Positions 16,022-20,691 of a stretch of 64,000 bases of DNA are shown one piece after another. This stretch comes from Cobetia amphilecti. GTDB lineage: Bacteria > Pseudomonadota > Gammaproteobacteria > Pseudomonadales > Halomonadaceae. Positions within the stretch are counted from its first letter, which is position 1. Every line of letters begins with the position of its first letter. The notes under the pieces are model-generated. The model searched no databases. It was not told the DNA's origin and saw only the letters and a program-made list of their open reading frames with translations. The position numbers and the translations under genes are program-made. The stretch covers positions 434,001 to 498,000 of the forward strand of contig NZ_CP084115.1 of the NCBI RefSeq assembly GCF_020217465.1, read 5' to 3'.

Positions 16022-16073
16022 GAGAACACCCGCTGATGACCCCCTCGATGAGGGCTGATCAGTGGGTGTTCTT
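16022..16073 (+). terminator. Hairpin after argA
   Basis: Long imperfect stem: AGAACACCCGCTGAT pairs with ATCAGTGGGTGTTCTT, with an inner CCCTCGATGAGGG hairpin. It lies 35 bases after argA and is probably its terminator. Confidence 0.65.
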
Positions 16074-16111
16074 GCATAGGTGTCGCAGTTTTCCCTCACC
16101 CCTTGCGGGAT

Positions 16112-16129
16112 TGTCTTGCAAAGGAGACG
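16112..16129 (+). promoter_or_regulatory. Possible GlrR (QseF) enhancer site
   Basis: TGTC-N10-GACG matches the enterobacterial GlrR site TGTC-N10-GACA with one mismatch. It lies about 210 bases upstream of the predicted sigma54 start at about 16329, a usual distance for enhancer-bound activators. Only one copy is seen, so confidence is modest. Confidence 0.35.
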
Positions 16130-16302
16130 TTTCAAGACGTTGATTCAGAAGGGAAAAATAGCATGACCCGTATATGTGTTGGCAAATCGCGACGAATCGG
16201 CCAGTAAAACACGACTCTGTGTGCCGCCCTGGGCAACATTGGCATGCCTGTCGCCGTGATCGTCATTTCAAGTCATTGTTTTGTAATGTGTTTTCGCGTT
16301 TA

Positions 16303-16318
16303 TGGCACGCCTTTGGCA
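16303..16318 (+). promoter_or_regulatory. Sigma54 promoter upstream of the structured RNA
   Basis: TGGCACG-N4-TGGCA has GG at 16304-16305 and GC at 16316-16317, exactly ten bases apart, as sigma54 requires, with one mismatch in the -12 element (TGGC for TTGC). The predicted start is near 16329. The next protein operon encodes a sigma54 activator, GlrR. In E. coli the sRNA gene glmY has the same setting. Confidence 0.6.
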
Positions 16319-16773
16319 ATAGGTACCGTGAGCAAGAGATATGAGGCGCATCACCGGCCCCTTTCTCTGGCCTTCCAGCGATGACGGTACTCACTACCCT
16401 GTGCGCTCCGTGATCGCTGACAGGCCAAGCGTCTGCTCCACGCGATGTGTGACTTCAGGTTGCGATGAGACAGGTACGGCCCCTGGTGGGCATGGACAGT
16501 ATCTTGAGGGCAAGGACGCCCGGGCAAGGATGCCCGAAACCGATGCGGTAGCCGGAGAGATTGGCTGCCGTCATCCCCGAATTGACGATCGAGGCGGGCA
16601 AGTCGGCAAGCCATCCGACTCGATCATCCACATTGCGATGTGTTGCCCCCTGCTTCACATCCGATAGGGAGCGCGGACGCTGTCCGGCGTGAACGTCAAC
16701 TGACCTGGAACGACCACCAGGTGACGTTCTTTTCTCCCGGGACTGACAGGCAGACCACCTGTCAGGCCCGCCA

Positions 16774-16819
16774 ATCACGTAGTGCCTCTGGTCTCCAGGT
16801 ACCAGAGGCACCACGTGAT
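16774..16819. repeat. Long inverted repeat (19-bp stem)
   Basis: ATCACGT then GTGCCTCTGGT, an eight-base loop, then ACCAGAGGCAC and ACGTGAT. Only one A-C mismatch interrupts the stem. It is directly preceded by a perfect 8-bp hairpin at 16743-16765 and followed by the terminator at 16848. It may be part of the small RNA or a separate mobile palindrome. Confidence 0.75.
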
Positions 16820-16847
16820 GACTGACCCTTCAGTTCCCTGCGTACTT

Positions 16848-16876
16848 GGGGCCGGCTATGCCGGCCCTCTTTTTTT
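16848..16876 (+). terminator. Strong intrinsic terminator upstream of glrK
   Basis: GGGCCGGC-TAT-GCCGGCCC followed by TCTTTTTTT. As no protein gene precedes it for 850 bases, its existence is direct evidence that something non-coding is transcribed through this gap. Confidence 0.9.
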
Positions 16877-17039
16877 GTGCGTCTAGCGCTGAATGGGCAA
16901 CAATTTCATGCGAAACGTTGCCAATGGGGCGGTTTGTCTCGTGGCGGCGTATTGATTTGAATAAGAGTCGTATTTATTAACGAACTGGCAACCGCGATGG
17001 ACGCTGGTGAACTCTGGTATTCTAGGAAGACGTGATTCG

Positions 17040-18632
17040 ATGATGACCACCCCTTTCTTGCATAGAGTTCTTTCCATGGCCTCCACAGTGTCACGACGCT
17101 GGCGTCCCCGCTCGCTGCCGCAGCTGGTTCTGATGGCATTTCTGGTGGTGATGCTGCCGATTGCCGTGCTCATGTTTCAAGCAGGGCAGGCGCTGTCGGA
17201 GTTGTCGGAACTGGCGGATGTCAGTGCCCGCCAGGCTGTCGACCAGACCCGCCGCGCCCGCACGCTGACCAATCTCGCCGTCGAGATGGAGCGTAGCGCC
17301 CGCCAGTACGCCGTGCTGGAAAACCCTGATCTGATGAAGATCTACGCCGACAAGGCCAACAGCTTCCGCACCTTGCTGGATGAGCAGGCGCGGCTGTTGG
17401 GCGAGGGCGACCCTCGCGTCAGCGAGTTGAAGGCGACGCTGTCACAGCTCGAGCGCATGCCCGAGATGAGCGTCGACCAGGTCAGTCGCCATCTGGAAGA
17501 CTTCGGGCCCTTCTCGATCCAGGCCAGCGGCCTGCTCAACTCCACGCGTGAACTTGTCGATGCGCGTATCGAAGGCATCCGCGCCCGCGCCTCTCAGGTC
17601 AAGAATCAGCTGTGGTGGCAGACCGCCGCGCTGGTCTCCATCAGTCTGCTGTTGATGCTGTTCTTCACCTGGCTGATCATCCGTCCCATCCGGCAGCTGG
17701 AGCGCCGCATCAATGGCCTGGGTAGCGGCACCGACAGCGAGCGACCCATCGTCATCAAGGGGCCGGCGGAGCTGGTGCAGCTGGGCGAGCGTCTCAACTG
17801 GCTGTCGACGCGTCTGGATGAGCTCGAGGAGCAGAAGCAGCAGTTCCTGCGTCACATGTCGCATGAGCTCAAGACCCCGCTGGCCAGCATCCGTGAAGGC
17901 ACCGGCCTGCTGATCGACGAGGTCGCCGGGCCGCTGAGTCCGCACCAGACCGAGATTCTTGGTCTGCTGGATGACTCCAGCAAGGAATTGCAGAAGCTGA
18001 TCGAGCAACTCCTCGACTACAATCTGCTGCAGCACAATCAGGGCCTCGAACAGAGCCGCTTCGATGTGCATGAAGTGTTCAAGGAAGTGCTGGCGAAACA
18101 TCGCCTGGCACTGGAAAAGAAGGGCATGCGCGTGCATCTTCCGCCTGCCAGCCTCAGTTGGGAGGCGGACAGGCCGCGTACCGGGCGTATTCTCGACAAC
18201 CTGATCTCCAATGCCATCGCCTATGGCGAAGACAGCGGTGACCTGTGGTTGAGAGCCCGCAAGGAGCGTCGCAAGCTGATCATCGAAGTCGCCAACAGCG
18301 GTGAACCCATCGCCGCCCAGGACCGTGACCACCTGTTCAAGCCCTTCTATCAGGGCGCGGTGAAGCGCAAGGGCCCGCTCAAGGGCTCCGGCATCGGTCT
18401 CTCGGTCGCCGCTGACAGCGCCCGCGCCCAATTTGGTCAATTGGCGCTGGTGGATGACCCCAAGGCGGATGTCTGCTTCCGGCTGACATTGCCGACACCG
18501 AGTCGCTCGCTGACGTCAGGGGAAGGCAGCGAGCATGAACCGCAGGCAGACAGGGATGCCGCCGGAGCGGATCAGCAGTCCACACCACATGAAATGGCGT
18601 CATTGAACGCCATCAAGCACGCAAGGAACTGA
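17040..18632 (+). CDS. glrK: Sensor histidine kinase GlrK (QseE)
   Basis: Inner-membrane histidine kinase of about 530 residues. It has a short N-terminal tail, first helix (LVLMAFLVVMLPIAVLMFQAG), a helical periplasmic domain, second helix near residue 205 (LVSISLLLMLFFTWLII), a HAMP segment, the dimerisation motif FLRHMSHELKTPLASI with phospho-His near 275, and a HATPase domain (NLISNAIAYG, GSGIGLSV). The qseG-like lipoprotein and glrR genes follow, which identifies it as GlrK/QseE, an envelope-stress-linked kinase. ATG 17040 has AGGAAG upstream; a GTG at 17007 is an alternative. Confidence 0.9.
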   Translation: MMTTPFLHRVLSMASTVSRRWRPRSLPQLVLMAFLVVMLPIAVLMFQAGQALSELSELADVSARQAVDQTRRARTLTNLAVEMERSARQYAVLENPDLMKIYADKANSFRTLLDEQARLLGEGDPRVSELKATLSQLERMPEMSVDQVSRHLEDFGPFSIQASGLLNSTRELVDARIEGIRARASQVKNQLWWQTAALVSISLLLMLFFTWLIIRPIRQLERRINGLGSGTDSERPIVIKGPAELVQLGERLNWLSTRLDELEEQKQQFLRHMSHELKTPLASIREGTGLLIDEVAGPLSPHQTEILGLLDDSSKELQKLIEQLLDYNLLQHNQGLEQSRFDVHEVFKEVLAKHRLALEKKGMRVHLPPASLSWEADRPRTGRILDNLISNAIAYGEDSGDLWLRARKERRKLIIEVANSGEPIAAQDRDHLFKPFYQGAVKRKGPLKGSGIGLSVAADSARAQFGQLALVDDPKADVCFRLTLPTPSRSLTSGEGSEHEPQADRDAAGADQQSTPHEMASLNAIKHARN

Positions 18633-18636
18633 AGTG

Positions 18637-19203
18637 ATGAAGGGTCAACGACTACTGATGCGCCTGGCTGCAGGCGTGTTGCTCAGTACGCTTAGCGCCT
18701 GTGGCGCCCTGACCAATATCACCATGCCGGGCAGCGAGCCGGAAGTGGTCAGCCCGAGTGTGCGGGAGAGCTGCTATGGCGCCGGCGACCTGCCGGACTT
18801 CACCGGCGAGGACTGCCTGCTGGATGAATGGGTCGCCTTCGCGCTGCAGGCCCAGCGTGGCAACAGCGGCTGGCGTGAAAGCACCCTGTTGCAGCTGGAA
18901 GGCAACCGCCACGACCGTCGTCTCGCGCGTGCCATCGTGCTCAGCTGGGGCGATGAATCGGACTGGGAGCTGGCCTCCGACCTCTACAAGGCGGACCTGC
19001 CCACCGCCCCGAGCCGCCTGCAGCCGCTGCTTCGTCAGTGGCTCAATGGCCTCGAGGAGCGTCGCGGTCTGATCGCCGAGCGTGACAAGAATGACGGTGC
19101 CCGTCGCAAGCTCAGCGCCGAGAACGCCCAGCTGACCAAGAAGCTGGAAGCCTTGACGGCCATCGAAGAATCGATCAATTCGCGCCGCCAGAGCACGCCC
19201 TGA
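18637..19203 (+). CDS. qseG: QseG (YfhG)-like outer membrane lipoprotein
   Basis: Small lipoprotein of 188 residues. The N-terminus is a lipoprotein signal ending in the lipobox LSAC (Cys about 23). The mature part is helical and ends in a coiled-coil (RRKLSAENAQLTKKLEALTAIEES). Its position between glrK and glrR and these features match QseG, which in E. coli interacts with the GlrK sensor at the envelope and tunes its activity. Sequence similarity by eye is limited, so the name rests partly on context. The start overlaps closely with glrK (four bases between stop and ATG); AAGGA precedes it. Confidence 0.8.
   Translation: MKGQRLLMRLAAGVLLSTLSACGALTNITMPGSEPEVVSPSVRESCYGAGDLPDFTGEDCLLDEWVAFALQAQRGNSGWRESTLLQLEGNRHDRRLARAIVLSWGDESDWELASDLYKADLPTAPSRLQPLLRQWLNGLEERRGLIAERDKNDGARRKLSAENAQLTKKLEALTAIEESINSRRQSTP

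Positions 19204-19323: not shown

Positions 19324-20691
<1,368 letters not shown>

Follow-up and report, generated by a model that had tools for sequence, protein, structure and literature searches.

A probable family of GlrR- and sigma54-activated, CsrA-binding and likely dual-function small RNAs at the glmY position of Halomonadaceae

Among small RNAs that act on global RNA-binding proteins, CsrB/CsrC and RsmY/RsmZ are controlled by GacA/UvrY, and CrcZ of Pseudomonas is transcribed by CbrB and sigma54 and sequesters Hfq/Crc. The RNA known to be produced under the sigma54 activator GlrR (QseF) is GlmY, and we know of no CsrA-binding small RNA that GlrR controls. The motif recognized by CsrA/RsmE is reported to be an ANGGAN hexaloop, and a CsrA dimer bridges sites 10-63 nt apart (PMC7652899); McaS, with four GGA and two CsrA bound, is reported to sequester CsrA and also to be a stronger repressor of csgD when CsrA is present (PMC10729762). 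In E. coli, GlrR/QseF is reported to bind three TGTN12ACA sites upstream of glmY, with IHF helping, and its consensus is also written TGTCN10GACA (PMC6075780, PMC8745638). The counterpart at this position in the Halomonadaceae carries the signature of the Csr system, without detectable likeness to GlmY. Conservation, covariation, enrichment of operators and motifs, and paralogous copies were all observed directly, and from the sequences we consider it probable that this RNA belongs to a GlrR-sigma54-activated, CsrA-binding and probably dual-function family. Among the literature matches listed there is no published description of the Halomonadaceae gap RNA, nor is there one in Rfam, and no literature joining Halomonas with glmY was found.

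The window, the whole 64,000-nucleotide stretch analysed here, comes from a Cobetia genome consisting of a single 4.16-Mb contig; in it the gap between argA and glrK is followed by genes for a glrK-type sensor kinase (17040-18632, plus strand; Pfam HAMP, HisKA and HATPase_c), a qseG-type lipoprotein (18634-19203, plus strand) and GlrR (19324-20691, plus strand). The first two are named by synteny, the second also by a lipobox-like start recognized by eye; of the 25 NCBIfam matches listed for the kinase, not one reaches its cut-off, and the lipoprotein has no family match in NCBIfam or Pfam. The sigma54 activator that the original prediction had placed in this operon scores 808.9 bits to NF011695 (GlrR; NCBIfam equivalog cut-off 763). 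Directly 3' of argA lies a strong hairpin, GAACACCC...GGGTGTTC (16024-16071), that has no long T-run. For comparison, the region upstream of glrR was collected from 80 further genomes, argA and glrK were located in each, and two congener loci (L005 and L006) were put in reverse orientation before gap analysis. Eighty of 84 non-congener loci were taken in (G069 counted), those of G073, G078, G088 and G097 being left out; the locus counts also leave out L001, a duplicate of the window, and L094, which entered no scan. Of 86 distinct Halomonadaceae loci, 85 have an argA-glrK gap of 700-1265 bp, the exception being L094, with a 58-bp gap in a genome whose GlrR is 55% identical, and a search across 38 genomes found two blocks conserved beyond Cobetia.

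No protein gene is evident in the gap, as had been stated from the window alone. Three open reading frames of 87-119 aa gave no Pfam family above cut-off, and they are not conserved beyond near relatives: the plus-strand frame is interrupted by stops in all five congeners compared, the minus-strand frame 16455-16814 is free of stops in the nearest two (L002 and L003) with 2-11 in the other three, and the minus-strand frame 16351-16614 is free of stops in L002 with 1-14 in the other four. A one-base length difference in the conserved segment, between Cobetia and most other genera, also speaks against a conserved reading frame. A structured RNA is placed at 16330-16876 on the plus strand (~547 nt), with a predicted start ~12 nt past the -12 element, on the basis of its fold and the family alignments A2 and A3; folded as 16330-16878, it has a z of -8.15 against 100 dinucleotide shuffles. 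From the predicted start to the T-run, the RNAs of 84 loci are 207-567 nt long (median 450). A plasmid search gave no match.

The RNA is preceded by a sigma54 -24/-12 promoter, TGGCACGCCTTTGGCA (16303-16318, plus strand), that has the exact GG-N10-GC spacing originally noted and agrees with 11 of 12 consensus positions. A best match of at least 9 of 12 positions is found in 84 of 85 gaps, vs 10.7 of 85 in shuffled gaps; the one gap under that level is L093, at 8 of 12. Further upstream are three GlrR-type activator sites on the plus strand, TGTCGCAGTTTTCCCTCA (16081-16098; 6 of 8 letters to TGTCN10GACA), TGTCTTGCAAAGGAGACG (16112-16129; 7 of 8) and TGTTGGCAAATCGCGACG (16177-16194; 6 of 8). GlrR-type sites in the family favour certain positions, including about -222, -190 and -125, and the window is occupied at all three: position -222 of the first site and positions -124 to -126 of the third recur in relatives, and -190/-191, those of the second, are the commonest in the family. 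Scanning the 85 promoter regions from 300 to 30 bp upstream of the sigma54 boxes yielded 31 perfect TGTCN10GACA sites, where 50 sets of dinucleotide shuffles averaged 0.1 (sd 0.3); when one mismatch among the eight letters was allowed, the count was 114 vs 4.3 in shuffles. With the spacer altered to 5-9 or 11-15, the same regions held 0-4 perfect sites. An IHF-like site on the minus strand (16269-16281) agrees at 12 of 13 letters, counted by eye, with WATCAANNNNTTR, which we take to be the IHF consensus; the exact consensus occurs in only 20 of 85 relatives, vs 0.3 in shuffles. The sigma54 box and structured RNA sequence of the original prediction are confirmed, and the start of the feature is moved upstream so as to include the activator sites (16081-16194) and the IHF-like site.

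A sigma54 box and upstream TGTCN10GACA sites are what marks a GlrR-activated gene, and both are found here. The control by GlrR that had been suspected from the neighbouring operon is supported by sites that fit the published E. coli consensus and by a GlrR that passes its equivalog cut-off; the enrichment of operator sites over shuffles speaks most strongly for GlrR as the driver of the RNA, and, judged by sequence, GlrR very probably switches it on. Compared by hand, the 3' module pattern described below is missing where a genus has no close GlrR (g3, g5, g10, g16, g17, g18 and g37), the exception being two 1-mismatch matches in G060. In the mechanism we envisage, an envelope signal would act through GlrK and QseG on GlrR, and phosphorylated GlrR, bound at the TGTCN10GACA sites and assisted by IHF, would cause sigma54-RNA polymerase to transcribe the gap RNA, a promoter logic that would equal the one published for enterobacterial glmY.

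The likeness to GlmY extends to the position before glrK/qseE-qseG-glrR/qseF, to the sigma54 promoter and, as predicted for Halomonadaceae and described for E. coli, to three TGTN12ACA-type activator sites with help from IHF, whereas the Halomonadaceae RNA differs in its length (a median of 450 nt), its A-N-GGA sites and its lack of a covariance match. With E values up to 10 allowed for the window gap, and up to 1 for the gaps of five relatives (L061, L069, L089, L118 and L131), the Rfam GlmY/GlmZ models (that of GlmY presumably being RF00128) match nothing, in agreement with the earlier remark that no GlmY-like sequence is visible. Of the features of the GlmY/GlmZ class, the locus thus has the sigma54 promoter and QseF/GlrR sites beside qseEGF/glrKGR and lacks the Rfam match. 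A strongly diverged GlmY, acting on glmS as a decoy for RapZ, would explain why the neighbours glrK-qseG-glrR and the layout of sigma54 box, activator sites and IHF site are the same as those reported for glmY (PMC6075780), but it is an improbable reading given the empty covariance searches of these six gaps, and given that neither the 3' module nor the conserved block paired with 18 glmS leaders better than shuffles did (best 1.7 sd). As a separate observation on glmS, G000 encodes at C1:2743702-2745642 (L257) a second full-length GlmS paralogue of 648 aa beside the usual one; a second GlmS is present in both Cobetia genomes searched (G000 and G002), and none above cut-off was found in the other 14 genera searched.

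In the family alignment, an IHF-like stretch rich in AT comes first and the sigma54 box next; then follow what look like a hairpin at the 5' end and a long stem (with no pair count behind them), the GCUCCACGCGAUGUGUGACUUAGGUUGCGAUGAGAC segment, the A-N-GGA sites, variable stems, and finally the 3' module and terminator. On the plus strand of the window, the conserved segment GCUCCACGCGAUGUGUGACUUCAGGUUGCGAUGAGAC (16435-16471) is followed by A-N-GGA site 1, AUGGAC (16492-16497), beside a covarying stem, and by two 14-nt hairpins with ANGGAN hexaloops, GGGC-AAGGAC-GCCC (16508-16521) and GGGC-AAGGAT-GCCC (16522-16535; loop AAGGAU). These are the tandem AAGGA hairpins of the original prediction, and a partition-function fold leaves their GGA unpaired at 0.92 and 0.99. 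Its mention of more GGA-bearing stems holds in part: the ATGGA at 16492-16496 is conserved in the family, yet predicted mostly paired (0.22 unpaired), and a fourth A-N-GGA, at ~16666, is predicted paired (0.04 unpaired).

That the loops are of CsrA type is upheld by their conservation. Counted as ANGGAN hexaloops on at least three pairs, 164 hairpins occur in 86 RNAs (84 loci and the second copies of L072 and L104) vs 5.07 (sd 2.26, max 10) in 100 shuffle sets, and permuted motifs of the same composition give at most 9, save two contained in AAGGA; L137 is absent from the count because its promoter call falls too near the 3' module, its 13-mer being present. Two such hairpins are found in 77 RNAs, three in 2, one in 4 and none in 3. 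Tandem loops 13-20 nt apart, usually 14 nt, are present in 76 of 84 loci, and in 72 of those 76 a third A-N-GGA precedes the first loop by 20-23 nt. Eight loci of g15 (L090-L093 and L133-L136) have no tandem pair, seven of them retaining one or two ANGGAN hairpins; L088 and L130, also of g15, do carry it. Alignment A2 leaves out eight loci without the tandem pair, and identical segments were entered once. Of 72 distinct rows, 69-72 retain the letters A, G, G and A at any one of the three sites, while the second and sixth letters of A-N-GGA-N vary; the loss of hairpin loops among relatives that would have told against the original prediction was thus not seen. Three rows (L089, L131 and L132) fail in the first hairpin through misregistration, each having its own hairpins. 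Both sides have changed in 11 of 16 chosen pairs, amounting to 60 such cells, where shuffles give 17.6 and slid controls no more than 17. Because the structure was drawn from one of the sequences and the rows are related, these changes count for more than the percentage of paired cells. Accessibility varies among the 13 RNAs folded: the GGA is more than 0.9 unpaired in 10 for hairpin 1 (lowest 0.12, in L111), in only 5 for hairpin 2 (0.03 in L075) and in 2 for the upstream site. The RNAs contain a mean of 3.7 A-N-GGA vs 1.8 in shuffles, of which only three sites are conserved.

Among the hairpins, the second loop letter is A in 106, U in 46, C in 10 and G in 2. The AAGGA loops could in principle mimic Shine-Dalgarno sequences, given the likeness of AAGGA to a ribosome-binding site, or pair as kissing loops with the UUCCCU that the RNA itself carries within its 3' segment; this we regard as very improbable, as the variation of the second letter produces AUGGA and ACGGA, which are poor Shine-Dalgarno sequences, and pairing with UCCCU needs at that letter a G, the rarest there. 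The csrA gene is present in all 24 genomes searched, as a single copy in the window genome, and residues L4 and R44 are kept in all six CsrA proteins read. The RNAs have ANGGAN hexaloops conserved above chance and two sites within the 10-63 nt reported for bridging by CsrA, and from this very specific conserved signature we infer that the three-site RNA binds CsrA. To speak of a sponge would go a step further, since only three sites are conserved per RNA, the capacity for titration is small, and full titration of CsrA by so few sites is uncertain.

Similar to CsrB/CsrC and RsmY/RsmZ, the Halomonadaceae RNA has ANGGAN loops on GC-rich stems, an intrinsic terminator and paralogous copies; it differs in having two tandem loops and one further site where those RNAs have many loops, and in its predicted control by sigma54 and GlrR. 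Rfam finds no family at gathering score over the whole window, and matches above gathering were absent for RF00018 (CsrB) in 24 genomes and for the RsmY/RsmZ models RF00166 and RF00195 in 15 each, so that the covariance search first suggested gave no GlmY/GlmZ match and placed the RNA in none of these Csr/Rsm families. Two matches on the 3' end and terminator, to AniS (30.8 bits, gathering 50) and sbrA (31, gathering 45), fall below threshold and were rejected. With McaS and GadY, which act by base pairing and bind CsrA as well, the RNA shares the combination of few GGA sites and a separate conserved segment, under a different promoter, and their Rfam models have no match in the window or the five relatives scanned. 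It also resembles CrcZ, in that a two-component sigma54 activator would drive an RNA predicted to bind a global RNA-binding protein, while protein, motif, gene neighbours and sequence are all different. Elsewhere in the family, L229 (G009:C22:86717-86846, minus strand) has 9 GGA in 130 nt, a terminator and 39 bits to RF00166 (cut-off 44), and is likely a canonical Rsm/CsrB-type sponge in a genus without a close glrR and without the GlrR-linked RNA. Two further Rsm-like RNAs under the Rfam cut-off, L231 (G008:C11:664722-664880, plus strand) and L234 (G006:C29:197772-197876, plus strand; ACAAGGAUGU in a stem-loop, by eye), suggest that some genera with the GlrR RNA may also hold a separate classical Rsm RNA.

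The most conserved element of the RNA, which the original prediction missed together with the paralogues, is a 3' module, CCCUUCAGUUCCCUGCGUA (16826-16844, plus strand), that contains the invariant 13-mer AGUUCCCUGCGUA (16832-16844) and precedes the intrinsic terminator (16848-16876, plus strand; stem 16848-16868, then C and seven T), a strong terminator just as first described. Both are aligned in A1, whose rows were picked by a looser GTTCC-type pattern, L107 and L114 being left out because another T-run was picked. The exact 13-mer (AGTTCCCTGCGTA) stands before the terminator in 85 of 85 gaps, and looks like a base-pairing or processing module. Allowing at most one mismatch, TTCAGTTCCCTGCGTA is found in 86 of 122 family genomes; among five GlrR genomes without such a match (G017, G050, G063, G073 and G083), four, when examined, had the exact 13-mer with different letters before it. 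Just 5' of the module, 16774-16819 form a near-perfect inverted repeat, ATCACGTAGTGCCTCTGGT...ACCAGAGGCACCACGTGAT, which gave a self-match both in the window genome and in the two nearest congeners.

Several genomes hold extra copies of the RNA, with different bodies but a common 3' module and, for the most part, the promoter and hairpins; several of these paralogues have their own sigma54 box and A-N-GGA hairpins on a different stem sequence, and GlrR-type sites were read at several, without a shuffle control. Fourteen paralogues carry 18 ANGGAN hexaloop hairpins vs 0.29 in shuffles. These are 14 of 20 further places, L199 being left out as the main locus of G134, L202, L206 and L218 as having no convincing sigma54 box, L210 for its variant 3' module and L216 because the script did not recognize its promoter. 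The whole of block A is kept in L207, L208, L210 and L211 (92-99 bits), the 3' motif of L210 being shorter by one base. L200 and L203 (~105 nt) retain only the 3' module, and in genus g8 the gaps of L072 and L104 contain at ~930-1170 a second sigma54 RNA in tandem, ~210 nt long, that also has this 3' module; none of these four copies has an ANGGAN hexaloop hairpin. As most copies were found via the 3' module, copies lacking it would be missed. L202, L206 and L218 (the last with the variant TTCAATTCCCTGCGTA) have the module, a hairpin and a T-run, and possibly represent RNAs with other promoters or derived from 3'UTRs.

Short and hairpin-bearing paralogues indicate that the family has two separable parts, and retention of the 3' module in copies without hairpins means that CsrA binding cannot be the sole function. 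The copies at other places, which retain the module and mostly the promoter too, also make it very doubtful that the RNA has no gene of its own and belongs to the glrKGR operon as its long 5' leader. Co-transcription of glmY and qseEGF is reported for Proteus mirabilis (PMC8745638), but here a strong terminator ends the RNA with 163 bp left before the ATG of glrK, read-through being possible. A more serious contender, which we hold to be possible though somewhat short of probable, is a base-pairing small RNA centred on the invariant 3' segment, whose A-N-GGA hairpins serve only to bring in CsrA for stabilising or chaperoning, or else have a structural role. It would explain why AGUUCCCUGCGUA is present in every gap and persists in the hairpin-less copies, and a remodelling of McaS action by CsrA has been published (PMC10729762). 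However, the perfect complement CGCAGGGAACTG is not, by eye, clearly above a backward control in 122 genomes, and most of the matches listed are the genes of this RNA; accessibility of the 3' segment is predicted to be only partial (0.26-0.60 in 13 RNAs); and the A-N-GGA letters are kept as strongly as the best-conserved parts of the body.

Taken together, an invariant 3' module and paralogues point to an RNA with two functions and not to a pure sponge, and by analogy with McaS, our favoured model, the gap RNA most likely combines uptake of CsrA with an action of the 3' module on mRNAs. In such a dual-function RNA, the A-N-GGA sites would capture CsrA during envelope stress sensed by GlrR, and the 3' module would act on mRNAs, possibly with CsrA as a partner, as is reported for McaS. 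On a larger scale, we tentatively suggest that in the Halomonadaceae GlrK-QseG-GlrR may have been rewired from GlmY-RapZ-GlmS to the Csr system, with a multigene set of dual-function CsrA-binding RNAs, whose 13-nt 3' module works on mRNAs, and with envelope stress directly setting CsrA activity. If this is true, a conserved sensor has kept its promoter while the RNA behind it changed, the Csr system has a sigma54 input that links two control circuits normally separate, and the role of the glmY position outside Enterobacteria can be tested in culturable halophiles (Cobetia, Halomonas and Chromohalobacter).

The distribution of the RNA was traced in a named set of 80 GlrR loci, partly overlapping the first locus set. 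The 3' module is present in 77, accompanied by a sigma54 box in 76 and by at least two strict hairpins in 66 of these; the loci without the 13-mer are L344, L366 and L370, the last two of which hold little upstream DNA. The family is supplied with two covariance models, R1 and R2. Matches to R1 above 60 bits occur in family members only: in the order sample (244 genomes, 10 of them from the family) 7 genomes have one, and in the class sample (274 genomes) 2 do. All others are at most 34.5 bits, and those outside the family, which reach at most 33.5 bits, were taken as chance, many covering only terminator positions 36-62. R2, the hairpin block, exceeds 90 bits in five family genomes of the order sample and fails on G019 and G052, family genomes that have the RNA, and its one non-family match, at 21.7 bits, was likewise attributed to chance. 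Strong matches to R1 and R2 are confined to the Halomonadaceae in the samples searched.
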